A stretch of 64,000 nucleotides of DNA from Holophagae bacterium (lineage in GTDB: Bacteria; Acidobacteriota; Thermoanaerobaculia; Thermoanaerobaculales; Thermoanaerobaculaceae): contig JAAYVZ010000287.1 of NCBI GenBank assembly GCA_012516935.1, forward strand, positions 1 to 64,000, in the 5' to 3' direction. The first letter of the stretch is position 1; every line of letters begins with the position of its first letter. The translations under genes and the position numbers were made by a program. Positions 581-15,125 of the stretch are shown piece by piece. The notes under the pieces were generated by a model, which was not told where the DNA came from, ran no database searches, and saw only the letters and a program-made list of their open reading frames with translations.

Positions 581-610
581 TTGACGGGGAGCCGCCCACC
601 GGGCTAGCGT
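581..610 (+). promoter_or_regulatory. Sigma-70-like promoter of the Ehr operon
   Basis: TTGACG (581-586) and TAGCGT (605-610) are separated by 18 bases. Transcription would start near 617, which places the GTG at 609 upstream of the transcript and favours the TTG at 642 as start of the first gene. Confidence 0.5.
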
Positions 611-641
611 GCGGCGCCCCCTGTGGGCGTGGGATACGCGA

Positions 642-1310
642 TTGGAGCTGACGGTCAAGGACGTGGCGCGGGCGCTGGCGATCGGTGAGGACGCCGTCTT
701 CGAGCTGGTGGACAGGCAGGGGCTGCCCGCCCAGCAGGTGGACGGTGGGCTGCGCGTCCACCGGGCCGAGCTGCTCGCCTGGGCGAACGCGCAGGGGCTG
801 GCGGTGGCGACGGAGCTGTTCGCGCCACCGGCGGCGGCGTTGCCGACGCTTTCAGCCGCGCTGGCGGCGGGTGGGGTCGTGCACGACCTGCCGGGGGACG
901 ACACCGCCTCGGTGCTGCACCACCTCGTGGCGGCAATGCCGCTGCCGGCACAGGCGGATCGCCAGCTCCTGTACTCGGTGCTGCTCGCCCGCGAGGCGTT
1001 GGGCTCGACCGGGATCGGCGACGGGATCGCCATCCCCCATCCGCGGAACCCGATCGTGCTGCACGTCGACCACCCGCTGGTGACGCTCTGCTTCCTGCGC
1101 CGGCCGGTAGATTTCAGCGCCCTGGACGGCAAGCCCGTGGTGGCCCTGTTCTCGCTCATCAGCTCGACGCCGAAGATGCACCTGCACCTGCTCTCGCGCC
1201 TGGCCTACGTGCTGCGCGACCCGGGATGCAAGGCGGCGATCGCCCGGCGGGCTGACGCGGCGGCGATCCTCGACGAGGTCCGGCGGGTCGAATCGGGGTT
1301 GGGAACGTGA
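642..1310 (+). CDS. Excisionase-type HTH plus PTS EIIA (fructose/PtsN-like) regulator
   Basis: A 222-residue two-domain protein. Residues 1-55 resemble a MerR/excisionase helix-turn-helix (ELTVKDVARAL, then GLPAQ and an arginine-rich wing). Residues about 80-215 resemble a PTS EIIA domain of the fructose/nitrogen type, with GIAIPHPRNP carrying the histidine that is phosphorylated in this family. The start is uncertain: TTG 642 begins exactly at the HTH domain, while GTG 609 would add 11 residues but lies inside the proposed -10 element. It is the first gene of the hydrogenase-4-like operon. I infer a regulator that reads PTS phosphorylation (energy state) and controls the membrane complex; no PTS partner is visible here. 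Confidence 0.75.
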   Translation: MELTVKDVARALAIGEDAVFELVDRQGLPAQQVDGGLRVHRAELLAWANAQGLAVATELFAPPAAALPTLSAALAAGGVVHDLPGDDTASVLHHLVAAMPLPAQADRQLLYSVLLAREALGSTGIGDGIAIPHPRNPIVLHVDHPLVTLCFLRRPVDFSALDGKPVVALFSLISSTPKMHLHLLSRLAYVLRDPGCKAAIARRADAAAILDEVRRVESGLGT

Positions 1311-1329
1311 GCGTCGGGAAAGGCGGCCG

Positions 1330-3309
1330 ATGACCCTGGTCCTGCTCGCGATCGGAGTGCTCGTGGCAACCGGGGTAGCTGCCCTGCCGGTGCGCTGCGG
1401 CACTCGAGCCGGCACGGTCACCGCAGCCGGTGCGGTCGGCGCGGCGACGCTGGTCGTGGGGCCGGCACTGCGGGCGATGCTGGGTGCGTCTCTACCTGGG
1501 ATCAAGCGCGTCTGGTCGGTGCCGCTGGGCACGTTCTCGCTCGGCATCGACGCGCTCACGGGTGTTTTCCTCCTGATCATCGTCACGATCGGCGCGCTGG
1601 GGGCCGTGTACGGGGTGCCCTATCTGACCCGAACCGCGCCGGGGCGGAGGTTGGGCGTGCCCTGGTGCATGTACAACCTGCTGCTGGCCAGCATGCTCGT
1701 GGTGGTCACCGCGCGCGATGGGGTGCTGTTCCTCGTGGCCTGGGAGGTGATGTCGCTGGCCTCGTTCTTTCTCGTGACCTTCGACGACCGCACGGAGGAG
1801 GTGCGCGAGGCGGGGTGGACGTACCTGCTGGCGACACATATCGGGACCGCCTTTTTGCTCGCGATGTTCCTGCTGATAGCTGAAGGCGGGCCGCTGAGCC
1901 TGGAGGCCCAGGTTGTCCGGCCGACACCACTCGCCAGCGTCGCGTTCGTGCTGGCGCTGGTCGGCTTCGGGACCAAGGCCGGGTTCTGGCCGCTGCACGT
2001 GTGGCTGCCGCAAGCCCATCCGGCGGCGCCGTCACACGTCTCGGCGGTGATGTCGGGGGTGATGCTGAAGATGGGCGTCTATGGGCTGCTGCGGGTGCTG
2101 CCGCTGCTCGGGCCGCCAGCGGTCTGGTGGGGATGGGTGCTGGTGGGCGTCGGCGCCGTCTCGGGTGTCGGCGGCGTGCTGTTCGCCCTCGCACAGCACG
2201 ACCTCAAGCGGTTGCTCGCCTACCACAGCGTGGAAAACCTGGGCCTCATCGCGCTCGGTCTCGGCCTGGGTACGCTGGGCCTGGCGAGCAACCTCCCGGT
2301 GATGGCAGCCCTGGGGTTCGCCGGCGCCCTCCTGCACGTGGTCAACCACGCTATCTTCAAGAGCCTGCTGTTCTTCGGAGCGGGTGCCGTGGTCGCGGCG
2401 ACGGGCACGAGGGACCTCGACCAGCTCGCCGGGTTGGGACGGCGGATGCCCGTCACCGCCCGGACGTTCCTGGTCGGGTCGGCGGCCATCTCGGGTCTCC
2501 CGCCGCTGAACGGATTCGTCTCCGAGCTGCTGATCTTCCTGGCGGCGCTGGCCGGTATCAGCGAGCGCACCGCGGGGGTGGTCGCTCCCGCCGCCGCCGT
2601 GCTCGCAGCGCTGGGCTTGATCGGCGGGCTGGCAGCGGCGTGCTTTGCCAAGGCCTACGGGGTGAGCTTCCTGGGTGAGCCGCGGCAACCGCTGGCAGCC
2701 CACGATCCGGCGCCGCCGATGCGCAGGGTGATGGTGCTGCTGGCGGCGCTGTGCGCGCTCATCGGCCTGGGAGGCGCCTGGGTGGTACCGGGCCTCACCG
2801 CCGCTGTGGCGACGCTGGTGAGGGTGCCATTTCTGGAGCTACAGCCCGTACTCGGCGGCGATGTCGGGCGGATCCTGGCCGCTGTCGGCGCGCTGGGTGC
2901 CTTTTTCTGGGTGTTGGTGCTGGTGCTGCTCCGGCTGCGCAAGGCGGTGCTGGGGGAACGGGAGGTGGGCGCGTCCCCGACCTGGGACTGCGGCTACGCC
3001 GCGCCCTCCCCGCGCATGCAGTACACCGCCTCCTCGTTCGCCCAGCCACTGGTCGAGCTGTTTCGCGGCGTGCTGCACACCCACCACGACGTCGCGCCGC
3101 CACATGGCATCTTCCCTCGCACGGCCCGGCTCGCCACCGAAACCCCGGAGGTCGTCGAGGTCGGGTTCTTGCGGCCACTTTTTGCCGCCATCGCTCGTCT
3201 CGCACAGCGTCTTCACGTCCTTCAGCACGGTCGCGTGCAGCTTTACGTGCTGTACCTCGCACTCGCCCTGCTGGCGCTGCTGGTATGGCAGCTCGGGGGG
3301 GGATGGTGA
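1330..3309 (+). CDS. hyfB: HyfB/NuoL-like antiporter subunit
   Basis: A 659-residue polytopic membrane protein of the Mrp/NuoL/HyfB family, the proton- or sodium-translocating subunit of group-4 hydrogenase-like complexes. The family core is clear: FLVAWEVMSLASFFL, GFGTKAGFWPLHVWLPQAHPAAP and HDLKRLLAYHSVENLG hold the charged residues of the ion channel. The C-terminus (about 540-659) is soluble-looking and contains WDCGYAAPSPRMQYTASSF, typical of HyfB. The stop overlaps the next start. A run of eight G (3295-3302) lies across the junction. Confidence 0.92.
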   Translation: MTLVLLAIGVLVATGVAALPVRCGTRAGTVTAAGAVGAATLVVGPALRAMLGASLPGIKRVWSVPLGTFSLGIDALTGVFLLIIVTIGALGAVYGVPYLTRTAPGRRLGVPWCMYNLLLASMLVVVTARDGVLFLVAWEVMSLASFFLVTFDDRTEEVREAGWTYLLATHIGTAFLLAMFLLIAEGGPLSLEAQVVRPTPLASVAFVLALVGFGTKAGFWPLHVWLPQAHPAAPSHVSAVMSGVMLKMGVYGLLRVLPLLGPPAVWWGWVLVGVGAVSGVGGVLFALAQHDLKRLLAYHSVENLGLIALGLGLGTLGLASNLPVMAALGFAGALLHVVNHAIFKSLLFFGAGAVVAATGTRDLDQLAGLGRRMPVTARTFLVGSAAISGLPPLNGFVSELLIFLAALAGISERTAGVVAPAAAVLAALGLIGGLAAACFAKAYGVSFLGEPRQPLAAHDPAPPMRRVMVLLAALCALIGLGGAWVVPGLTAAVATLVRVPFLELQPVLGGDVGRILAAVGALGAFFWVLVLVLLRLRKAVLGEREVGASPTWDCGYAAPSPRMQYTASSFAQPLVELFRGVLHTHHDVAPPHGIFPRTARLATETPEVVEVGFLRPLFAAIARLAQRLHVLQHGRVQLYVLYLALALLALLVWQLGGGW

Positions 3310-4211
3310 GCGCCTCGATCGTGGGTGTGCTCGCCGGCCTGATCCTGGCCCCGCTGCTCGGGGGGATCATCAACCGCGTCAAGGCGTTGTTCGCCGGCCG
3401 CAGCGGTCAACCGCTCCTGCAACCGTATCGCGATATCGCCAAGCTGCTGCGTAAGGGTGCGGTTTTTTCGACCACGACTGGCGAGATGTTCGGGGTCGGG
3501 CCGGCTATCGGCGTGGCCGCAGGGGTCGTTGGCCTCACGCTGCTGCCGCTGGGCGGGAGCCGGGCACCGGTGGCGTTCTCGGGCGACTTCCTGTTGCTTC
3601 TCGGCCTGCTGGCGCTGGCGCGTTTCTGCATCGTGTTGGCGGCACTCGATACCGGGTCGGCGTTCGAGGGCATGGGGGCGAGCCGCGAGGTCGCCTTCTC
3701 CGCCCTCGCCGAGCCAGCGATGCTGCTGGCGGTGGGAGCGCTCGTGCGGGCCACCGACGCGCAGTCGCTTTCGGCCGCCGTCGGTGCGGTATGGAAACAG
3801 GTGTGGCAGCCGTCGATGCCGGCGGCGGTGCTGGTGGCGGCAGCGCTGGCGGTGGTGCTGCTGTGCGAGAACGCTCGCATCCCGTTCGACGACCCCAACA
3901 CCCACCTCGAGCTGACGATGATCCACGAGGTGATGGTCCTCGACCATTCGGGCCCGGACTTCGGGCTCGTCCTCTACGGTGGAGCGCTCAAGCTGTGGAT
4001 CTTCTCGGCCCTGCTCGCCGGCGTGCTGGTGCCGGTGCGGTGTGGCTCACCGTGGCTCGATGCCGTTGCCACGGTGATCGGTACGTTCTGCGTTGCGGCG
4101 GGGGGGGGGGCGGTCGAGTCGACGATGGCCCGGCTGCGCCTCGTGCGGGTTCCGCAACTGCTGGTGGGGGCCGCGGTCATGGCGGCCCTGGCGGTGCTGC
4201 TGGTGAGGTGA
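3303..4211 (+). CDS. hyfC: HyfC/NuoH-like membrane subunit
   Basis: A 302-residue membrane protein of the NuoH/HycD/HyfC family, which anchors the hydrophilic arm to the ion-pumping arm. The N-terminal KALFAGRSGQPLLQPYRDIAKLLRKG and the loop CENARIPFDDPNTHLELTMI are diagnostic. ATG 3303 overlaps the hyfB stop (3307-3309) and is preceded by a G-run that can pair with 16S rRNA; GTG 3306 is the alternative. The coding sequence contains an 11-G homopolymer at 4100-4110, but the downstream frame (ESTMARLRLVRVPQLL) matches the family, so the assembled length is in frame. Confidence 0.92.
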   Translation: MVSASIVGVLAGLILAPLLGGIINRVKALFAGRSGQPLLQPYRDIAKLLRKGAVFSTTTGEMFGVGPAIGVAAGVVGLTLLPLGGSRAPVAFSGDFLLLLGLLALARFCIVLAALDTGSAFEGMGASREVAFSALAEPAMLLAVGALVRATDAQSLSAAVGAVWKQVWQPSMPAAVLVAAALAVVLLCENARIPFDDPNTHLELTMIHEVMVLDHSGPDFGLVLYGGALKLWIFSALLAGVLVPVRCGSPWLDAVATVIGTFCVAAGGGAVESTMARLRLVRVPQLLVGAAVMAALAVLLVR

Positions 4212-4858
4212 GCGTGGGCTGGGAGATCGACCCGATCTTGGTGACGCTGGTGCTCGTCAACCTCTTGCTGCTGGGGGGCAGCCGGCTGGTCACCTGCATC
4301 CGTCTGGTGGCGGTGCAGGGTGTGCTGCTGGGCATACTGGCGCTGCTGGTCCAGGTCGGGTGGTCGCCGACACGCGCGGTGCTGCTCGCCGGAGGGAGCG
4401 TGCTGCTCAAGGGCGTGGTGTTCCCACGCCTGCTATCGAGAGCGTTGCGGGGCGCCGAGATCCGCCGCGAGATGGAGCCCTACGTTGGCTACACGCCATC
4501 GGTGCTGCTCGGGCTTGCCATGCTGGCGCTCACGGTGTGGGTATCGTCACGCCTCACCCTGCCACTACCGGCCGCGTCGCATCTGCTGGTGCCGGTGGCG
4601 CTGTTCACGACCCTCACGGGGCTGTTTCTCATCGTCGCGCGGCGTAAGGCAATCACCCAGGTCTTGGGGTATCTCGTGCTCGAGAACGGCATCGTGACGT
4701 TCGGTATCGCCCTCTCGCACGAGGCCCCGTTGTCGGTCGAGCTGGGGGTGCTGCTCGACGTCTTCGTGGCCATCCTGGTGATGGGGATCATCGTCCACAA
4801 CATCCGCGAGGACTTCGACCACATCGACACCGACCGGCTGGCGAGCTTGAAGGACTGA
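4208..4858 (+). CDS. hyfE: HyfE-like membrane subunit
   Basis: A 216-residue protein with about six to seven hydrophobic helices, matching HyfE in length. The family relates to NuoK/MrpC with extra helices. The segment EMEPYVGYTPSVL and the C-terminal NIREDFDHIDTDRLASLKD agree with HyfE. The start GTG 4208 overlaps the hyfC stop (GTGA), with GTG 4214 as alternative. It lies between hyfC and hyfF in the usual hyf order. Confidence 0.9.
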   Translation: MSVGWEIDPILVTLVLVNLLLLGGSRLVTCIRLVAVQGVLLGILALLVQVGWSPTRAVLLAGGSVLLKGVVFPRLLSRALRGAEIRREMEPYVGYTPSVLLGLAMLALTVWVSSRLTLPLPAASHLLVPVALFTTLTGLFLIVARRKAITQVLGYLVLENGIVTFGIALSHEAPLSVELGVLLDVFVAILVMGIIVHNIREDFDHIDTDRLASLKD

Positions 4859-4860
4859 TC

Positions 4861-6348
4861 GTGCTCATCCTCCTCGCCCTCGCGCTCCCCACCCTGGCCG
4901 GTCTCGCGGCGTTCGTGGTGCGCGGCGACCGACTACGACGCTGGGTTCTCGTGGGGACGGCATGCGGGCACCTCGCGCTGGTGGCGGCGATGTGGGTTCG
5001 GCGGCCCCGCCCCTTGTGGGGCGACTGGCTGGTCATCGATGCTTTGGGGCTTTTGTTGCTGTCGATCACCAGCGTTCTTTTTGCGGTCGCGAGCGCTTAC
5101 GCCCTGGGCTACCTCGACCGCGAGGGCCACCAACCGCACCGCGACTTCGAAGAAGGCAAGCTGTTCTCGGACGCGCCCGAGGCGCGGTTCGTGGGCTGCC
5201 TGCTGCTCTTCCTCGCCTGCATGACGCTCGTCGCTTCGACTCAGCACATGGGGCTTTTGTGGGTCGCGATCGAGGCGACGACGCTGGCCTCCGCACCGTT
5301 GATCGCTTTCCACCGTCACCACCGTTCGCTCGAGGCGACGTGGAAGTACATCCTCATCTGTTCGGTCGGGATCGCTCTCGCGCTTTTGGGCACGTTCTTC
5401 GTCGCGGTCTCGGCGGCGCGGCCGGGTGGCGAGAGTTCGAGCATGCTGCTCGCCGACCTGATGAGCGAGGCGACCCGTCTGAACCGCGGGTGGCTCGAGG
5501 CCGGGTTCATTCTGCTGCTCGTAGGGTACGGTACCAAGATGGGGTTGGCGCCGCTGCACACCTGGCTGCCGGATGCCCACGCCGAGGCACCTTCGGTGGC
5601 CTCGGCGCTGCTTTCCGGGGCGCTGCTCAACTGCGCATTGCTGGGTATCCTGCGCAGCCAACAGCTTCTCACCGCCGCTGGCCTGGCACCGTTCGGGCAA
5701 CGCCTGCTGGTGGTCCTGGGGCTGGTGTCGATGGCCTGGGCCGCGGTGTTCGTCATTCGGCAGACCGACTTCAAGCGGCTCCTGGCCTACTCCTCGGTCG
5801 AGCACATGGGGATCGTGGCGCTGGGCGTGGGCCTCGGCGGTGCCGCCACCTTCGGCGCCTTGCTACAGGCTGTGAACCACTCGTTGGTCAAGGGGATGCT
5901 GTTCCTCGTCTCGGGCAACCTCCTGGCCGCCTATCGCAGCAAGTCGACGCGGGCGGTGCGGGGAGCGGTGCGCGCCCTGCCGGTGTCGGGCGTGCTTTGG
6001 GTGGCCGGCCTGTTCGCCATCACCGGCTCGCCACCGTTCGGGACGTTCTTGTCGGAGCTGGCAGTGCTCAAGGGCGCTATCGACGGCGGCCGCTGGTGGG
6101 TGGCCGCCGCCTACCTCGGGCTGCTGGCAGCGGTGTTCGCTGGGATGGGACGGATCATGCTGCGCATGGCCCAGGGCGAGCCGGGTGAAGGCGTCGTGCC
6201 GGCGCGGCGGGAGGCGTGGTCGGCGGTGCTGCCGCCTTTGATCCTGCTCGGGTTGGCCCTGATGCTCGGCGTGTGGGTGCCGCGCTGGCTCGCCGAGCTG
6301 ATCGCGTCCGCCGGGCAGGTGGTGGGAGGTGGACCGTGGCGGGTGTGA
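4861..6348 (+). CDS. hyfF: HyfF/NuoN-like antiporter subunit
   Basis: A 495-residue second antiporter-like subunit. Conserved features include GLLWVAIEATTLASAPLI, GYGTKMGLAPLHTWLPDAHAEAP and TDFKRLLAYSSVEHMG, the lysine- and histidine-containing helices of ion-translocating subunits. GTG 4861 follows the hyfE stop by two bases. With HyfB it gives the complex two pump modules. The end overlaps the start of hyfG by 13 bases, implying coupled translation. Confidence 0.92.
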   Translation: MLILLALALPTLAGLAAFVVRGDRLRRWVLVGTACGHLALVAAMWVRRPRPLWGDWLVIDALGLLLLSITSVLFAVASAYALGYLDREGHQPHRDFEEGKLFSDAPEARFVGCLLLFLACMTLVASTQHMGLLWVAIEATTLASAPLIAFHRHHRSLEATWKYILICSVGIALALLGTFFVAVSAARPGGESSSMLLADLMSEATRLNRGWLEAGFILLLVGYGTKMGLAPLHTWLPDAHAEAPSVASALLSGALLNCALLGILRSQQLLTAAGLAPFGQRLLVVLGLVSMAWAAVFVIRQTDFKRLLAYSSVEHMGIVALGVGLGGAATFGALLQAVNHSLVKGMLFLVSGNLLAAYRSKSTRAVRGAVRALPVSGVLWVAGLFAITGSPPFGTFLSELAVLKGAIDGGRWWVAAAYLGLLAAVFAGMGRIMLRMAQGEPGEGVVPARREAWSAVLPPLILLGLALMLGVWVPRWLAELIASAGQVVGGGPWRV

Positions 6349-7856
6349 GCTTGGCCGAGCTCCACAACGGCTTCTCCCTGCCGTCGTCCGAGGTGCCTCG
6401 CTGCGGGTGGGACGAGCTGTGCACCGAGATCTGCACGCACATCGGCAGTGGGGCCAGGCTCGCCGCCCTCGCCGGCCGGCCGGTCAACGACCGCCTCGAG
6501 GTGCTGGTGGTGCTGGTCCGTCCCGAGCACGGCACCCTCGCGCTCGGCCGCGCCGAGGTCGGGGCGCGCTTCGCGTCCCTCACACCTGCGTGCCCGGCGG
6601 CGCACATGTTCGAGCGGGAGCTGGCCGAGCAGTGGGGGGTGGTGCCGGATGGCCACCCCTGGCTCAAGCCCGTCCGCTTCCACCGCTCGTACCGGCCCGG
6701 CCACGATGCCTGGAGCCGGGCCGTCGACGATTCGATCCTTCCTTGCGTCACCGACTTCTTCCGCGTCGATGGGGAGGAGGTCCACGAGGTGGCTGTGGGG
6801 CCGGTGCACGCCGGTGTGATCGAGCCCGGGCACTTCCGCTTCCAGTGCCACGGCGAGCACGTCCTGCACCTCGAGATCGCCCTTGGCTACCAGCACCGAG
6901 GGGTCGAGCGGGCGCTGCTCGCCGCTGACCCCCGGCGCGCGATTCACCTCGCCGAGACGCTGGCTGGGGACTCGACGGTGGCGCACACCACGGCGCACTG
7001 CGTGGCGCTCGAGGCGCTCGGGGCCGGGCAGGCTCCACCTCGTGCCGAGGCGATTCGGGCGATCGCGCTCGAGCTCGAGCGGCTGGCCAACCATGTCGGC
7101 GACCTCGGCGCCTTGGCCGGTGACGTAGGGTTTCTACCGACGCAGTCGTTTTGCGGCCGCCTGCGCGGGGACCTCCTCAACCTGACCGCCTTGGTGTGCG
7201 GGAACCGCTTCGGCCGCAACCTCGTGCGCCCCGGGGGCGTGGCTTTCGACCTCGAGCCCGAGCGAGCGAGCGAGCTCGGAGCCCGGTTGCAGGAAATCCT
7301 CCAGGATGTGCGTGGGGCGCTGGAGCTGCTGTTCGAGTCCTCCTCGGTCCTGGTGCGCTTCGAGGGTACCGGCTCGGTGTCCAGCTCCCTCGCCACCGAG
7401 CTCGGTCTGGTGGGCGTGGCGGCACGGGCCTCGGGGCTGGAGCGCGATGTCCGCGCCGAGTTACCGGTCGGGATGTACCGTTTCGCCCAGGTGCCGGTAT
7501 CGACCTGGCACACCGGCGACGTCTTCGCCCGCGCCTGGGTGCGCTGGCTCGAGGTGCAGCGCTCCGCGGTGCTCGTGAGCGACCTCCTGGCAGCGCTCCC
7601 TACGGGAGGGCTGGCGACACGGTGCCCGGCGCCGAGAGGGGATCGGATCGCGGTCGCCATGGTCGAGGGGTGGCGTGGCGAGGTCTGTCACCTGGTCCAA
7701 ACCGACCCCGGTGGCCGCATCGCCACCTACAAGGTCGTGGATCCCTCGTTCCACAACTGGATGGGTCTGGCGATGGCGCTACGCAACCAGCAGATCTCGG
7801 ACTTCCCACTGTGCAACAAGAGCTTCAACCTCTCGTACTGTGGACACGACCTATGA
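6336..7856 (+). CDS. hyfG: HyfG/HycE-like large subunit lacking the Ni-Fe ligands
   Basis: A 506-residue fusion of a NuoC-like domain (about 1-150) and a NuoD/hydrogenase-large-subunit domain (about 165-506). The start GTG 6336 has GGAGG six bases upstream. YQHRGVER and ELERLANHVGDLG are typical of the large subunit. In true group-4 hydrogenases the first metal motif is C-G-I-C; here the aligned stretch (about 209-217) reads LAGDSTVAH, with Ala and Ser replacing both cysteines. The C-terminus ends NKSFNLSYCGHDL, without the distal C-x-x-C. It therefore cannot hold a Ni-Fe centre and matches the Ehr class. Its electron donor is unknown. Confidence 0.9.
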   Translation: MAGVSLAELHNGFSLPSSEVPRCGWDELCTEICTHIGSGARLAALAGRPVNDRLEVLVVLVRPEHGTLALGRAEVGARFASLTPACPAAHMFERELAEQWGVVPDGHPWLKPVRFHRSYRPGHDAWSRAVDDSILPCVTDFFRVDGEEVHEVAVGPVHAGVIEPGHFRFQCHGEHVLHLEIALGYQHRGVERALLAADPRRAIHLAETLAGDSTVAHTTAHCVALEALGAGQAPPRAEAIRAIALELERLANHVGDLGALAGDVGFLPTQSFCGRLRGDLLNLTALVCGNRFGRNLVRPGGVAFDLEPERASELGARLQEILQDVRGALELLFESSSVLVRFEGTGSVSSSLATELGLVGVAARASGLERDVRAELPVGMYRFAQVPVSTWHTGDVFARAWVRWLEVQRSAVLVSDLLAALPTGGLATRCPAPRGDRIAVAMVEGWRGEVCHLVQTDPGGRIATYKVVDPSFHNWMGLAMALRNQQISDFPLCNKSFNLSYCGHDL

Positions 7857-7950
7857 CGAAGGACGCGCAAGGGCAGACGCCGAGAGCCGAGCGCCGGCCG
7901 GACAGGTGCGGGGCCTTCGACCGTCGACGCTGGAGCGGTGGAGGTAGCCG

Positions 7951-8718
7951 ATGATCCGGGCGATCAGGGAGCGCTGGCGGCAGGGATACCGCACGATGCC
8001 CTACCCCGAGCAGCCGCCGGTCCTGCCCGACCGCGTCCTCGGGCGGCCGCATCTCGACCCCTCCCGCTGCCCGGCCGACTGCCACGCCTGTGGCGAGGTC
8101 TGTCCAACCGCGGCTGTGACCCGAAACGGCGGGCTCGCGCTCGATCTCGGACGATGCCTATTCTGCGCCGCCTGCTCGCGGGCCTGCCCGACCGGGGCGA
8201 TCGTCTGGAGCGGCGACTGGCGGATGGCCACCCGGACCCGGAAGGCAACGGTTGTACGAGGACGCGAGATCGAGCTGGCTGAAGCTCTCGACACCCGGCT
8301 GCGGCGGCTGCTCGGACGCTCGTTCAAGATTCGTCAGGTTTCCGCCGGTGGGTGCAACGCCTGCGAGGCCGATGTCAACGTGCTCTCGACCATTGGCTGG
8401 GACCTCGGACGGTTCGGCATTCAGCTCGTCGCCTCGCCCCGCCACGCCGACGCCCTGCTGGTGACCGGGCCAGTCCCGCGGAACATGCAGCTGGCATTGC
8501 AGAAGACGTACGACGCCACCCCGGCGCCCAAGCTCGTCATCGCCGTCGGCGCCTGCGCCATCGCCGGCGGGCCGTTCGCGGGCCACGAGGAGATCACCGG
8601 CGGCGCCGCGGCGACGCTGCCGGTGGACCTTTTCATCCCCGGCTGTCCACCCCACCCGGCCACCATTCTCGACGGCCTGCTGCGTCTGCTGGACCGGCTG
8701 CCGGCAGCCACTCGATGA
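7951..8718 (+). CDS. hyfI: Fused ferredoxin / NuoB-like subunit (HyfH-HyfI)
   Basis: A 255-residue iron-sulfur protein. Residues about 36-80 form a two-[4Fe-4S] ferredoxin domain (CPADCHACGEVCP and CLFCAACSRACP). Residues about 120-250 form a NuoB/HycG-like domain with four cysteines for the terminal [4Fe-4S] cluster: C135 and C138 (GGCNACE), C202 (GACAIAGGPF) and C232 (PGCPPHP). In E. coli these are two proteins, HyfH and HyfI. The cluster ligands are intact although the partner HyfG lost its metal site, so electron transfer is probably retained. GGAGG at about 7940 precedes the ATG. It is the last gene of the complex. Confidence 0.9.
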   Translation: MIRAIRERWRQGYRTMPYPEQPPVLPDRVLGRPHLDPSRCPADCHACGEVCPTAAVTRNGGLALDLGRCLFCAACSRACPTGAIVWSGDWRMATRTRKATVVRGREIELAEALDTRLRRLLGRSFKIRQVSAGGCNACEADVNVLSTIGWDLGRFGIQLVASPRHADALLVTGPVPRNMQLALQKTYDATPAPKLVIAVGACAIAGGPFAGHEEITGGAAATLPVDLFIPGCPPHPATILDGLLRLLDRLPAATR

Positions 8719-11860: not shown

Positions 11861-13081
11861 ATGAGCGACTTCAAGCAGAGCGGCACCATCGTCACTTTCC
11901 CCCGCCTGCGACCCCGCGACGAAGCTCAGCGCGAGAAGGAGCTGGTCACGCACGCCCGGCGCACCCCCCTCGCGCTGATCATTCCGTGCCTGGTCTCGGA
12001 GCTCGAGCAGCCGGCCCTGGCCGGGATGGTGGCGAGGCTCGCTGGCACGCCGTATCTCGACACGGCGGTGATCTCGCTCGACCGCGCCGATGCGGCCGGG
12101 TACGCGCGGGCGCTCGAGTACTTCCGCGCTTTGCGCCTGCGCACGATGGTGGTGTGGAACGACGCTGAGCCGGTGGCGGCGATCATCCGTGAGATCGAGA
12201 TGGCAGTGCTGAACCTCGGGCCCCGCGGCAAAGGGCGAGCCGTGTGGGTCGCCCTGGGAGCCGTGATCGCCGAGGAGCGGGCCGAAGCGGTGGCGTTTCT
12301 GGACGCCGACGTGGTCACGTTCGAGCGCTCGCTGCTGACCAACCTCGTCTACCCGATCCTCCACCCTGCGCTCGACTTCGACTATGCCAAGGGCTACTAC
12401 GCCCGGTACTCCGACCGCCTGCACGGGCGGGTGACGCGGCTCATGGTCCGCCCGCTCCTCCAGGCGCTGCTCAATACCGTGGGCCACCATCCCTACCTCG
12501 AGTACGTCGACTCGTTCCGCTACCCGCTCTCGGGGGAGTTCGCGGTCCACGCGACGCTGCTGCGGCGGCTGCGCATCCCCTCCGACTGGGGGCTCGAGGT
12601 AGGGCTGCTGTTCGAGGTGCTCCGCCACCGCTCGCCACGCCGGATCTGCCAGGTGGACGTGGCCGACCGCTTCGACCACAAGCACCAGGCGCTTTCCCCC
12701 GACAACCCGGGCAGCAGCCTGCACCGCATGGCGATCGACATCACCAAGCACCTCTTGCGCACGCTTGCCGCCGCCGGTGTGATCGTTCCGTCCGGCAGCT
12801 TCAAGGCGCTGCAGGTGGCGTTCCAGCGCTATGCCGAGGATGCCGTGGCCGACTCGTTCGCGGTCGCGGTGTTCAACGGGCTTGCCTTCGACCGCCACGC
12901 CGAGGAGGAAGCCGTCGATGTCTTCACGCACGCGTTCGCCGAAGGGTGCGAGCAGTTCGTCCAGGACCCCCTGGGCACCCCCGCCATGCCCAACTGGGCG
13001 CGCGTCCTCTCAGCGATGCCGGGTATCGGCGACCGCCTCTTGGCGGCGGTGCGCGAGCTCGGAGGAGTGCTCGAGCCGTGA
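11861..13081 (+). CDS. gpgS: Glucosyl-3-phosphoglycerate synthase (GT81-like)
   Basis: A 406-residue GT-A glycosyltransferase. The metal-binding motif is D148-A-D150 (AFLDADVVT). FDYAKGYYAR, LEYVDSFRYPLSGEFAV (about 216-230) and DRFDHKHQ match GpgS of the longer bacterial/archaeal type. GpgS joins NDP-glucose to 3-phosphoglycerate as the first step to glucosylglycerate, a compatible solute or polysaccharide primer. GGGGAG lies before ATG 11861. The stop overlaps the phosphatase start by four bases. Mannosyl-3-phosphoglycerate synthase is a less likely alternative. Confidence 0.8.
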   Translation: MSDFKQSGTIVTFPRLRPRDEAQREKELVTHARRTPLALIIPCLVSELEQPALAGMVARLAGTPYLDTAVISLDRADAAGYARALEYFRALRLRTMVVWNDAEPVAAIIREIEMAVLNLGPRGKGRAVWVALGAVIAEERAEAVAFLDADVVTFERSLLTNLVYPILHPALDFDYAKGYYARYSDRLHGRVTRLMVRPLLQALLNTVGHHPYLEYVDSFRYPLSGEFAVHATLLRRLRIPSDWGLEVGLLFEVLRHRSPRRICQVDVADRFDHKHQALSPDNPGSSLHRMAIDITKHLLRTLAAAGVIVPSGSFKALQVAFQRYAEDAVADSFAVAVFNGLAFDRHAEEEAVDVFTHAFAEGCEQFVQDPLGTPAMPNWARVLSAMPGIGDRLLAAVRELGGVLEP

Positions 13082-13848
13082 GGGTCCGCGCCATCCTCAC
13101 CGATCTCGATGGGACGTTGCTCGAGCCCGATGGCCGTCTGGACGTCGAGGCCCGGGTAGCGCTCGACACGCTCGCTGCGGCCGGCGTGTCGGTGGTGCCG
13201 GTGACCTCCAAGACCGCGGCCGAGGTCGGCTGGTTGCTCGCCCAGCTCGGGCTTTTCGGTCCAGCCGGGTTCGAGAACGGAGCCGGTGTGCTCGGCCGCG
13301 ACGGCCTCGCGCGGCTGTCGCACGCCGCGGTGCCGATCGCCGTCCTGCGCCGGGTTGCCGACCAGCTCCGAGCAGCGACCGGAGCACCGGTCCGTACGTT
13401 CGAGGAGCTCGGCGATACCGAGCTCACGGCGATCACGGGTCTGGCTGGGCCAAAGCTCGGGCGGGCGCGTTGTCGCCAGGCGACGTTGCCGCTCGCGGTC
13501 GACAGCAGGTGGGATGAGGCGCTGCGAGCCGCCGCACCGCCCGAGGTCGCCCTGGTTCGCGGCAACCGCTTTCTGCACCTGCAGGGACGGCATGCCAAAG
13601 CCGACGTCGTGCCGGCGCTTCTGGCCGCGGTGCCGGGTGCGGGAACCGTGGTCGCGTGCGGCGATGCACCCAATGACGTGGAGCTGCTCAGCACCGCCGA
13701 CGTGGCCGTGATCATCCCCTCGGCGCACGGTGTGCACGCCGGGCTGGGCGCTGCCCTGCCAGGAGCGCGGGTGGCGCCCGCGCCGCACGGACGCGGCTGG
13801 GCGCTGGCGGTGCTGGCGCTGCTCGCCGAGGCTGGGAGGCCGCGGTGA
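13078..13848 (+). CDS. Glucosyl-/mannosyl-3-phosphoglycerate phosphatase (HAD)
   Basis: A 256-residue HAD-IIB phosphatase of the MpgP/GpgP family. Motif I is D9-L-D11-G-T, motif II lies in PVTSKTAAE, and motif IV is CGDAPNDVELL. GNRFLHLQGRHAKAD is typical of the sugar-phosphoglycerate phosphatases. It removes phosphate from the product of the upstream synthase to give glucosyl- or mannosylglycerate. GTG 13078 overlaps the gpgS stop (GTGA), and its own stop overlaps the next gene the same way. The exact sugar cannot be told from sequence. Confidence 0.85.
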   Translation: MRVRAILTDLDGTLLEPDGRLDVEARVALDTLAAAGVSVVPVTSKTAAEVGWLLAQLGLFGPAGFENGAGVLGRDGLARLSHAAVPIAVLRRVADQLRAATGAPVRTFEELGDTELTAITGLAGPKLGRARCRQATLPLAVDSRWDEALRAAAPPEVALVRGNRFLHLQGRHAKADVVPALLAAVPGAGTVVACGDAPNDVELLSTADVAVIIPSAHGVHAGLGAALPGARVAPAPHGRGWALAVLALLAEAGRPR

Positions 13849-15125
13849 TCGACCTGTCGTTTCTCCCCGAGAGTCTTCGCCGACAGCTCGCCGACGTGGG
13901 CCAGGTGGACGTGCTGGTGGGGATCCCGAGCTACAACAACGCGCGCACCATCGGGCACGTGGTGCGGGCGGTGCAGGGAGGGCTTGCCAGGCACTTTCCC
14001 GAGCAGCGCGCGTTGCTCGTCAACTCAGACGGCGGCTCGACGGACGGCACGCCGGACGTGGTGCGGCAGGCGTCGATCGCTTCGTTCGAGACGATCCTCG
14101 CTGCCCACCCGCTGCGCGCCGTCCACCGCATCGTCACCCCCTACCACGGCATCCCCGGCAAGGGCAGCGCCCTGCGCACGGTGTTCGCCGCGGCTGCCGT
14201 GACGGGGGCGAAAGCCTGCGCGGTGGTGGACTCCGACCTGCGGTCGATCACGCCGGAGTGGATCGAGCTGCTCCTCGAGCCCGTGCTCGTGCAGGGGCTC
14301 GACTTCATCGCGCCGCTGTACCACCGGCACAAGTACGACGGGACCATCACCAACTCGATCGTCTACCCGCTCACGCGGGCGCTGTACGGCGCCCGGGTAC
14401 GACAGCCGATCGGTGGCGATTTCGGGTTTTCGGGGCGGCTAGCCGAACACTACCTCACCCACGACGTGTGGTCGTCCGACGTCGCACGCTACGGCATCGA
14501 CATCTGGATGACGACCACCGCCATCACCGGCGGCTACAAGATCGGGCAGTCGTTTTTGGGGGCCAAGATCCACGACGCCAAGGACCCGTCCGTTGACCTC
14601 TCGGCCATGCTCATGCAGGTAACCGGCGCAGTGCTGTCGCTGATGGGAGTTCATGCGGCACGGTGGCGCGAGGTGCGGGCATCGCACCCGGTGCCGGTGT
14701 TCGGGTTCGAGTACGCGGTCGGGCTCGAGCCGGTGCCGGTCAACCTCGCGCGCATGCTCGAGCGCTTTCGGACCGGCGCTCGGGAGCTGGGGGAGATCTG
14801 GCAACACACGCTGCATCCCGCGACAGCGCGCGAGATCGCCGCGGTCGCCGCAGCCTCGGACGAGGAGTTCGCGTTTCCGCCGGCGTTGTGGGTGAGGACG
14901 ATGTACGACTTCGCAGTGGCCCACCAGCACGGGCGGCTCAACCGCGAGCACCTGCTCCGCTCGCTCACCCCGCTCTACCTCGGTCGCACCGCCGCCTTCG
15001 TCGTGCAGACTCGGGAGTCGGGGGCCGAGGAGGTGGAGCAGATCCTCGAGGAGCTGTGTCTGCAGTTCGAGCGGGAGAAGCCGTACCTGCTCGAGCGGTG
15101 GGACGAGACGGGAGGTGGACGATGA
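13845..15125 (+). CDS. GT2-like glycosyltransferase of the osmolyte operon
   Basis: A 426-residue GT-A enzyme. The nucleotide-sugar site is suggested by VGIPSYNNARTIG (about 26-38), VNSDGGSTDGT and the metal motif D129-S-D131 (VVDSDLRS). IGGDFGFSG and YGIDIWMTTTAI resemble acceptor-loop motifs of mannosylglycerate-type synthases. A C-terminal helical region of about 150 residues follows. GTG 13845 overlaps the phosphatase stop. Position suggests it extends or rebuilds a glyceryl glycoside, for example to mannosylglucosylglycerate, but the acceptor and donor are inference. Confidence 0.7.
   Translation: MIDLSFLPESLRRQLADVGQVDVLVGIPSYNNARTIGHVVRAVQGGLARHFPEQRALLVNSDGGSTDGTPDVVRQASIASFETILAAHPLRAVHRIVTPYHGIPGKGSALRTVFAAAAVTGAKACAVVDSDLRSITPEWIELLLEPVLVQGLDFIAPLYHRHKYDGTITNSIVYPLTRALYGARVRQPIGGDFGFSGRLAEHYLTHDVWSSDVARYGIDIWMTTTAITGGYKIGQSFLGAKIHDAKDPSVDLSAMLMQVTGAVLSLMGVHAARWREVRASHPVPVFGFEYAVGLEPVPVNLARMLERFRTGARELGEIWQHTLHPATAREIAAVAAASDEEFAFPPALWVRTMYDFAVAHQHGRLNREHLLRSLTPLYLGRTAAFVVQTRESGAEEVEQILEELCLQFEREKPYLLERWDETGGGR

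Follow-up and report, generated by a model that had tools for sequence, protein, structure and literature searches.

The window analyzed here is a 64,000-nucleotide stretch of DNA from a Holophagae bacterium (Acidobacteriota; contig JAAYVZ010000287.1, positions 1 to 64,000), and near its start lie six hyf genes on the plus strand, which are complete open reading frames (ORFs), mostly overlapping, between positions 1330 and 8718. Based on subunit content, alignments, and phylogeny, we regard it as near certain that they encode a Geobacter-type Ehr (energy-converting-hydrogenase-related) complex. An earlier note on this DNA had described HyfB, C, E, F, G, and a fused HyfH-I as intact, which agrees with what we find. 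The interval it gave, 642-8718, does contain the hyf genes, but hyfB starts only at 1330, and a gene directly upstream of hyfB that falls within this interval, encoding a helix-turn-helix (HTH) and phosphotransferase system (PTS) EIIA protein, was not named. The features are as follows.

609..1310, plus strand: HTH_17 and PTS EIIA_2 (EIIA-Ntr-like) protein, 233 aa (PF12728, 5e-7; PF00359, 7e-20)
1330..3309, plus strand: hyfB/ehrA, antiporter-like membrane subunit, 659 aa (PF00361, 5e-53)
3306..4211, plus strand: hyfC/ehrB, NuoH-like subunit, 301 aa (PF00146, 3e-30)
4208..4858, plus strand: hyfE/ehrC, NuoK-like subunit, 216 aa (NCBIfam hydrogenase 4 membrane subunit, 9e-24; PF00420, under the cut-off)
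4861..6348, plus strand: hyfF/ehrD, second antiporter-like subunit, 495 aa (PF00361, 1.5e-48; NCBIfam hydrogenase 4 subunit F, 5e-113)
6336..7856, plus strand: hyfG/ehrL, NuoC-NuoD/HycE-like large subunit, 506 aa (PF00346, 2e-34; PF00329, 1e-6)
6960..6986, plus strand: HyfG L1 region LAGDSTVAH, residues 209-217, replacing VCGICGFAH
7815..7853, plus strand: HyfG C-terminal region NKSFNLSYCGHDL, residues 494-506, replacing GSLDPCYSCTDR
7951..8718, plus strand: hyfHI/ehrS, fused two-[4Fe-4S] ferredoxin domain and NuoB-like domain, 255 aa (PF01058, 3e-27; Fer4)

HyfB matches the NCBIfam model for hydrogenase 4 subunit B at 8e-174, which is under its equivalog cut-off, and the start of hyfG was set at the GTG at 6336, overlapping the hyfF stop.

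The large subunit HyfG has lost all four ligands of the [NiFe] site. In an alignment with Escherichia coli HycE, the ligands C241, C244, C531, and C534 correspond to HyfG A210, S213, S500, and G503. The L1 stretch reads LAGDSTVAHT, and the motifs AGDSTVAH and NLSYCGHDL are found just as previously quoted. The cysteine C502 is not the fourth ligand, since it sits at the residue just ahead of that position, which in hydrogenases is S or A. Alignment with HycE and Geobacter Ehr, which the earlier note had called for, yields no complete C-x-x-C pair, and no gene at this locus supplies ligand motifs from another large subunit. Across 81 Ehr sequences the four positions are occupied by A or S (one C), T or S (two A), S, and G, respectively; thus, cysteine occurs in 1/81 at the first position and in 0/81 at each of the other three. 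The L1 motif AGD[T/S] and the C-terminus DFPLCNKSFNLSYCG[H/F]DL are near-invariant in 80 further loci, a selection out of the 561 or more relatives in a scan. These loci belong to Acidobacteriota, Planctomycetota, Verrucomicrobiota, Lentisphaerota, Kiritimatiellota, Myxococcota, Thermodesulfobacteriota (Geobacter, Geomonas, and Desulfovibrionaceae), Spirochaetota, Elusimicrobiota, Omnitrophota, Gemmatimonadota, and others, and the signature A-G-D-[T/S] ... NKSFNLSYCG is present in Geobacter and Geomonas, which are among the closest named relatives and whose HyfG proteins are 53-54% identical to that of the window.

Judged from these alignments, the ligand replacement is a maintained family trait, that is, neither decay nor sequencing error. 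The near-invariance of the signature across 80 loci argues against decay, and the end-to-end alignment of HyfG with 64 other proteins argues against a frameshift artefact. An error, frameshift, or pseudogene is a general possibility in any metagenome-assembled genome (MAG), and no result backs it here; with full-length ORFs that have no internal stops and identical residues in approximately 80 independent assemblies, we consider it refuted by the conserved signature and the ligand mapping. The possibility that the newly conserved cysteines C171, C273, C288, C493, and C502 form a replacement metal site was also considered and dropped, and we make no claim for it. C273, C288, and C502 are lost jointly in four sequences, and a site shared by C273 and C288 is unlikely because in the predicted structure they lie 15 residues apart on one helix (267-288), ~22 Å if the helix is straight.

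Several lines of evidence place the complex within the Ehr class, as had been proposed. The subunit set is that of the group 4 hydrogenases, with antiporter-like membrane subunits, and the two CxxC ligand motifs that define a group 4 [NiFe] hydrogenase of the formate hydrogenlyase (FHL)/Hyf kind are absent. The quinone-site His/Tyr of NuoD and the tandem Cys of NuoB, which mark complex I, are likewise missing: the Tyr position is G211, and the cluster motif is GGCNAC. The traits of MBS, namely a shorter motif at the proximal cluster, two ligand Cys still in place, and loss of the pocket Glu, are not seen either. In the large-subunit tree, which is unrooted and whose bootstrap had not settled, HyfG groups with Geobacter and Geomonas Ehr, and all Ehr proteins with the GD motif form one group (99/96), followed by a ligand-bearing hydrogenase (L046, in genome G041) as the next branch (94/74), with E. 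coli Hyf/Hyc, Mbh, and NuoD on the far side of a 100/100 branch. This hydrogenase is 40% identical and has intact CGAC and ELCYAC motifs. A second ligand-less type (L054, 800-8312, and L026), from another family of the same order, reads FTGTSAVAH ... FGLSTAEGD and has neither the GD nor the NKSF motif. It branches outside Ehr and L046, so that the NiFe ligands may have been lost on more than one occasion. The window's own genome also encodes a ligand-bearing group-4-type cluster (contig C78; L056, 1523-10393) with several antiporter-like genes and a large subunit that carries CGIC/DPCYSC ligand motifs. HypD was tried as a test of NiFe dependence and is uninformative: it is present in 13/13 adequately complete Ehr-positive relatives and also, away from the C78 cluster, in the window's own genome.

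The Ehr of Geobacter (G. sulfurreducens GSU0739-0745; G. argillaceus, L091; Geomonas, L111 and L115) has the same hyfB-C-E-F-G-HI subunits and the same ligand replacements, and an EIIA gene lies beside the cluster in the Geobacter-type loci L091, L115, L127, and L130, as it does here. Unlike the complex described here, Geobacter Ehr often has two EhrA (HyfB) subunits, the EIIA gene of L091 and L130 is divergently oriented, and the Ehr of L091 lacks some cysteines of the ferredoxin domain. Rv0082-Rv0087 of Mycobacterium tuberculosis have also been described as an Ehr without NiFe function (PMC6728331); this operon is reported to include the regulator Rv0081, a different context, and we liken it to the present complex by description only. 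The function of Ehr was called undetermined for both M. tuberculosis (PMC6728331) and Margulisbacteria relatives (PMC6349859). The previous statement that such complexes are known only as sequences does not hold, given that Ehr subunits of G. sulfurreducens have been seen by proteomics, at higher levels with formate than under conditions that included hydrogen (PMC7894505). In addition, ehrA-2 and ehrB were mutation hotspots in Geobacter grown on an anode for 17 years (PMC13194489).

The proton path, the Fe-S cysteines, and the pump residues are retained. The AlphaFold model of HyfG (pLDDT 89.6) is closest to HycE among solved structures (7z0s_E, Z 40.5 over 475 residues), and the residues that the FHL structure study (PMC9474812) assigned to the proton route, HycE E193, H284, R395, E437, and R478, are kept as HyfG E163, H253, R364, E406, and R447 in 80-81 of 81 sequences. 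HycE H188 corresponds to the invariant HyfG H158, and the canopy residue Asp529 is replaced by Asn498. HyfC retains the E-channel residues of HycD (R108, E130, E138, E189, and E206), and HyfB retains the key residues of HycC (E135, K239, E294, H328, K336, and E391). Residues E139, K216, K247, E302, H336, K344, and E399 of HyfB and E138, K226, K305, K344, and E399 of HyfF are conserved across Ehr, in line with the expectation that the pump arm remains. HyfHI likewise keeps its [4Fe-4S] cysteines, all 12 of them: the first motif is C-x3-C-x2-C-x3-C, as in other Ehr proteins, and the proximal cluster (C135-x2-C138, C202, and C232) has the hydrogenase-type C-x2-C spacing. Residues specific to the Ehr type include HyfG D212, D469, K495, and C502 and, at the pocket-facing loop, HyfC D196, H200, H207, and H214; a few of them recur in individual relatives outside the type. 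The complex shares with E. coli FHL and hydrogenase-4 (HycE, HyfG) subunit homology, fold, proton-path residues, and the proximal-cluster motif, and differs from them in the absence of the NiFe ligands, of HyfD, and of HycI/HycH-type maturation genes from the operon, and in the fusion of HyfH with HyfI.

The gene upstream of hyfB encodes an EIIA_2 domain with a phospho-acceptor histidine, as in PTS EIIA-Ntr proteins. Its H144 aligns with H73 of E. coli PtsN (1a6j); H144 and H191 are invariant in 30/30 aligned HTH-EIIA sequences and R128 is present in 28/30, and a wider set holds a few copies without the histidine. The AlphaFold model (pLDDT 90.5) matches PtsN in Foldseek. The protein thus shares the EIIA fold and the R/H/H active-site residues with PtsN and adds an N-terminal HTH_17 domain; against the NCBIfam PtsN equivalog it scores 63.8 bits, under the cut-off of 138.7. 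When the same 59 genomes were searched with HyfG and HTH-EIIA, strong orthologues of the latter (E < 1e-30) were found in 17/18 Ehr-positive and 0/41 Ehr-negative relatives (Fisher p 6e-14, a value raised in significance by shared ancestry). The single Ehr-positive genome without one is 74% complete, and the 18 include G007, which has only a decayed hyfG, and G011, which has only a contig-cut hyfG. The decaying Ehr locus of G007 (L043, 9724-12133) consists of frame-broken remnants of EIIA, HyfG, and HyfHI, with hyfBCEF gone. Where the cluster is split between contigs (G006, G011, G012, G004, and G041), the EIIA gene is again directly upstream of hyfB, and elsewhere it adjoins the Ehr cluster in 46 of 63 informative loci (of 80), with ~0.1 expected from EIIA gene density.

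The window's own genome encodes HPr and, adjoining it, an EI-like ORF of 590 aa, and unphosphorylated PtsN is reported to bind and inhibit the K+/H+ antiporter YcgO (PMC11808508). We infer that the HTH-EIIA protein is a candidate regulator of the ehr operon that acts via the PTS phosphorelay, and transcription control is the simpler guess because of the HTH domain. No paper linking hydrogenase-4, PTS, and EIIA was found in a search leaving out most subscription journals, so that novelty is not proven. Another HTH-EIIA family, 24-28% identical, occurs in Ehr-negative relatives (L151, L152, L153, and L154), where a P-loop ATPase gene adjoins it in 4/4 and CLC-like and acyl-carrier/ketosynthase genes lie near some.

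We favor, with somewhat better than even confidence, the hypothesis that Ehr is an ion pump driven by a low-potential donor and using a proton-coupled acceptor, under control of the PTS phosphorelay. The donor, either ferredoxin or a docked dehydrogenase, would feed electrons via HyfHI to the proximal cluster. Electrons and protons would reduce an acceptor bound in the vacated NiFe pocket, rather than protons at a NiFe site or, as a general rule, quinone, and the pocket reaction would drive ion translocation through HyfC to HyfB and HyfF. The EIIA protein would report the phosphoenolpyruvate/PTS state and set either the expression of the complex, via its HTH domain, or its activity. H2 chemistry at the NiFe site is very unlikely because all four ligands are absent. 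The best explanation appears to be a formate-hydrogenlyase-like machine with a permanently rebuilt NiFe site and its own EIIA-type regulator. The suggestion of the earlier note that a redox partner is coupled to ion pumping is still the best reading, with the donor, acceptor, and pumping steps all putative.

Alternatively, Ehr could be a complex-I-like ferredoxin:quinone reductase with menaquinone in the vacated pocket, given that the same pocket was turned into a quinone site in complex I, that HyfG D263 is common to NuoD, and that the window's own genome carries an MqnA-family gene. We consider this unlikely in view of the glycine at the quinone-site Tyr position, the hydrogenase-like beta1-beta2 loop with E163, and the proximal cluster without the tandem Cys. 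Furthermore, among 27 Ehr-bearing genomes, mostly MAGs of unstated completeness, searches for MqnA/D and MenD only, with ubiquinone routes outside their scope, found MqnA/D in 11, MenD above the cut-off in 3, and neither in 13. Among these 13 are Treponema sp. UBA12037, the isolate Rectinema subterraneum, a further member of the Spirochaetales, three Elusimicrobia, and gut Lentisphaeria, and all share the pocket signature. The absence of menaquinone genes is suggestive evidence against quinone as a universal acceptor. UbiA (PF01040) had been tried as a quinone marker, was too broad, and was replaced by MqnA/D and MenD. Somewhat less probable again is a Mrp-like ion antiporter, not redox active, with a vestigial peripheral arm under EIIA control. 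Its ligands are gone and its antiporter subunits intact, and control of cation transport by EIIA-Ntr proteins is established (PMC11808508), but the conservation of the Fe-S cysteines, the proximal cluster, and the pocket residues at ~87-100% over many phyla would be unexpected in a vestige, a point softened by the loss of ferredoxin-domain cysteines in some Ehr such as that of G. argillaceus.

We give very little credence to an H2-evolving formate hydrogenlyase linked to formate dehydrogenase. The authors who found G. sulfurreducens Ehr up on formate suggest H2 from formate (PMC7894505), and a complex of formate dehydrogenase with Ehr was hypothesised in Margulisbacteria relatives (PMC6349859), but the missing ligands speak against H2 at this site, and no fdh gene is recurrent beside ehr. 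It is possible that formate is the donor, with an acceptor other than protons. A polysulfide (sulfane) reductase like MBS, with an open proximal cluster, seems equally improbable: Pyrococcus MBS/MBX is likewise a pump of the complex I superfamily whose NiFe site was lost from a hydrogenase, but in MBS two of the four Cys ligands remain, the cluster motif is altered and shortened, and the pocket Glu is missing (PMC7684303), whereas Ehr is without all four and keeps E163 and a full-length C-x2-C motif.

Several points weigh against the low-potential-donor-driven pump that we favor. In the literature found there is no measurement of substrate, activity, metal content, or pumping for any Ehr. A conserved redox-partner gene was not found in the operon, and the flanks hold no gene recurrent in at least six loci beyond hyf and EIIA; three other recurrent flank clusters are minus-strand or spurious-looking ORFs. 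The missing quinone genes are suggestive, since the genomes are mostly MAGs and the searches covered menaquinone routes only, and the MqnA-family gene of the window's own genome counts on the same side. As to the regulator, the relatives in the co-occurrence test are phylogenetically non-independent, and 17 of the 63 informative loci, including those of Geothrix and Elusimicrobia, have no nearby EIIA gene, which is therefore not indispensable in cis.

The genomic surroundings offer further observations. The Ehr genes of the planctomycete Planctomycetaceae OFTM22 fall into two separate groups (L064, 881-12371, and L163, 331-7514). The first begins with EIIA-hyfG-hyfHI and continues on the same strand with DabA, a pair of antiporter-like genes, and a SulP and P-II transporter of the inorganic carbon uptake type; hyfB-C-E-F-F' is on the other contig, which ends in the same 15-bp tandem repeat. 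In a further planctomycete, a gene for a SulP transporter 59% identical to this one (L059, 1-912, minus strand) neighbors the EIIA-ehr cluster in divergent orientation. A link of Ehr to CO2/bicarbonate uptake is possible from the single case of OFTM22; DabA as a general partner was rejected, as it is found at one locus only and in 1/59 relatives. Downstream of hyfHI in the window lie a DivIVA-like protein and imidazolonepropionase, separate genes that, of the genomes examined, only the one from the same genus retains. Farther on, two glycosyltransferase-like genes (11861-13081 and 13845-15125) flank a HAD-phosphatase-like frame, and the region 11861-15125 resembles a compatible-solute (glucosyl/mannosylglycerate) cluster, as judged only by eye from the translations.

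The complex in the window belongs to the known Ehr kind, to which we add a signature common to the family, a residue mapping, a test of the quinone hypothesis, and the link to EIIA. Ehr occupies a position between the hydrogenases and respiratory complex I. A bolder and rather doubtful proposal is that, within the complex I superfamily, Geobacter-type Ehr would form a third catalytic class of wide occurrence, in which the rebuilt pocket uses neither H2 nor quinone and a dedicated HTH-EIIA phosphorelay protein acts as the switch, making it a redox ion pump under PTS control. The active-site signature points to specific residues for mutagenesis, and the range of possible acceptors is narrowed by the presence of Ehr in fermenters that apparently have no menaquinone. 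The EIIA partner is a genetic handle and predicts that carbon/phosphoenolpyruvate status would control the complex through the PTS. The question of what Ehr does is thus testable in the culturable Geobacter and Geomonas.

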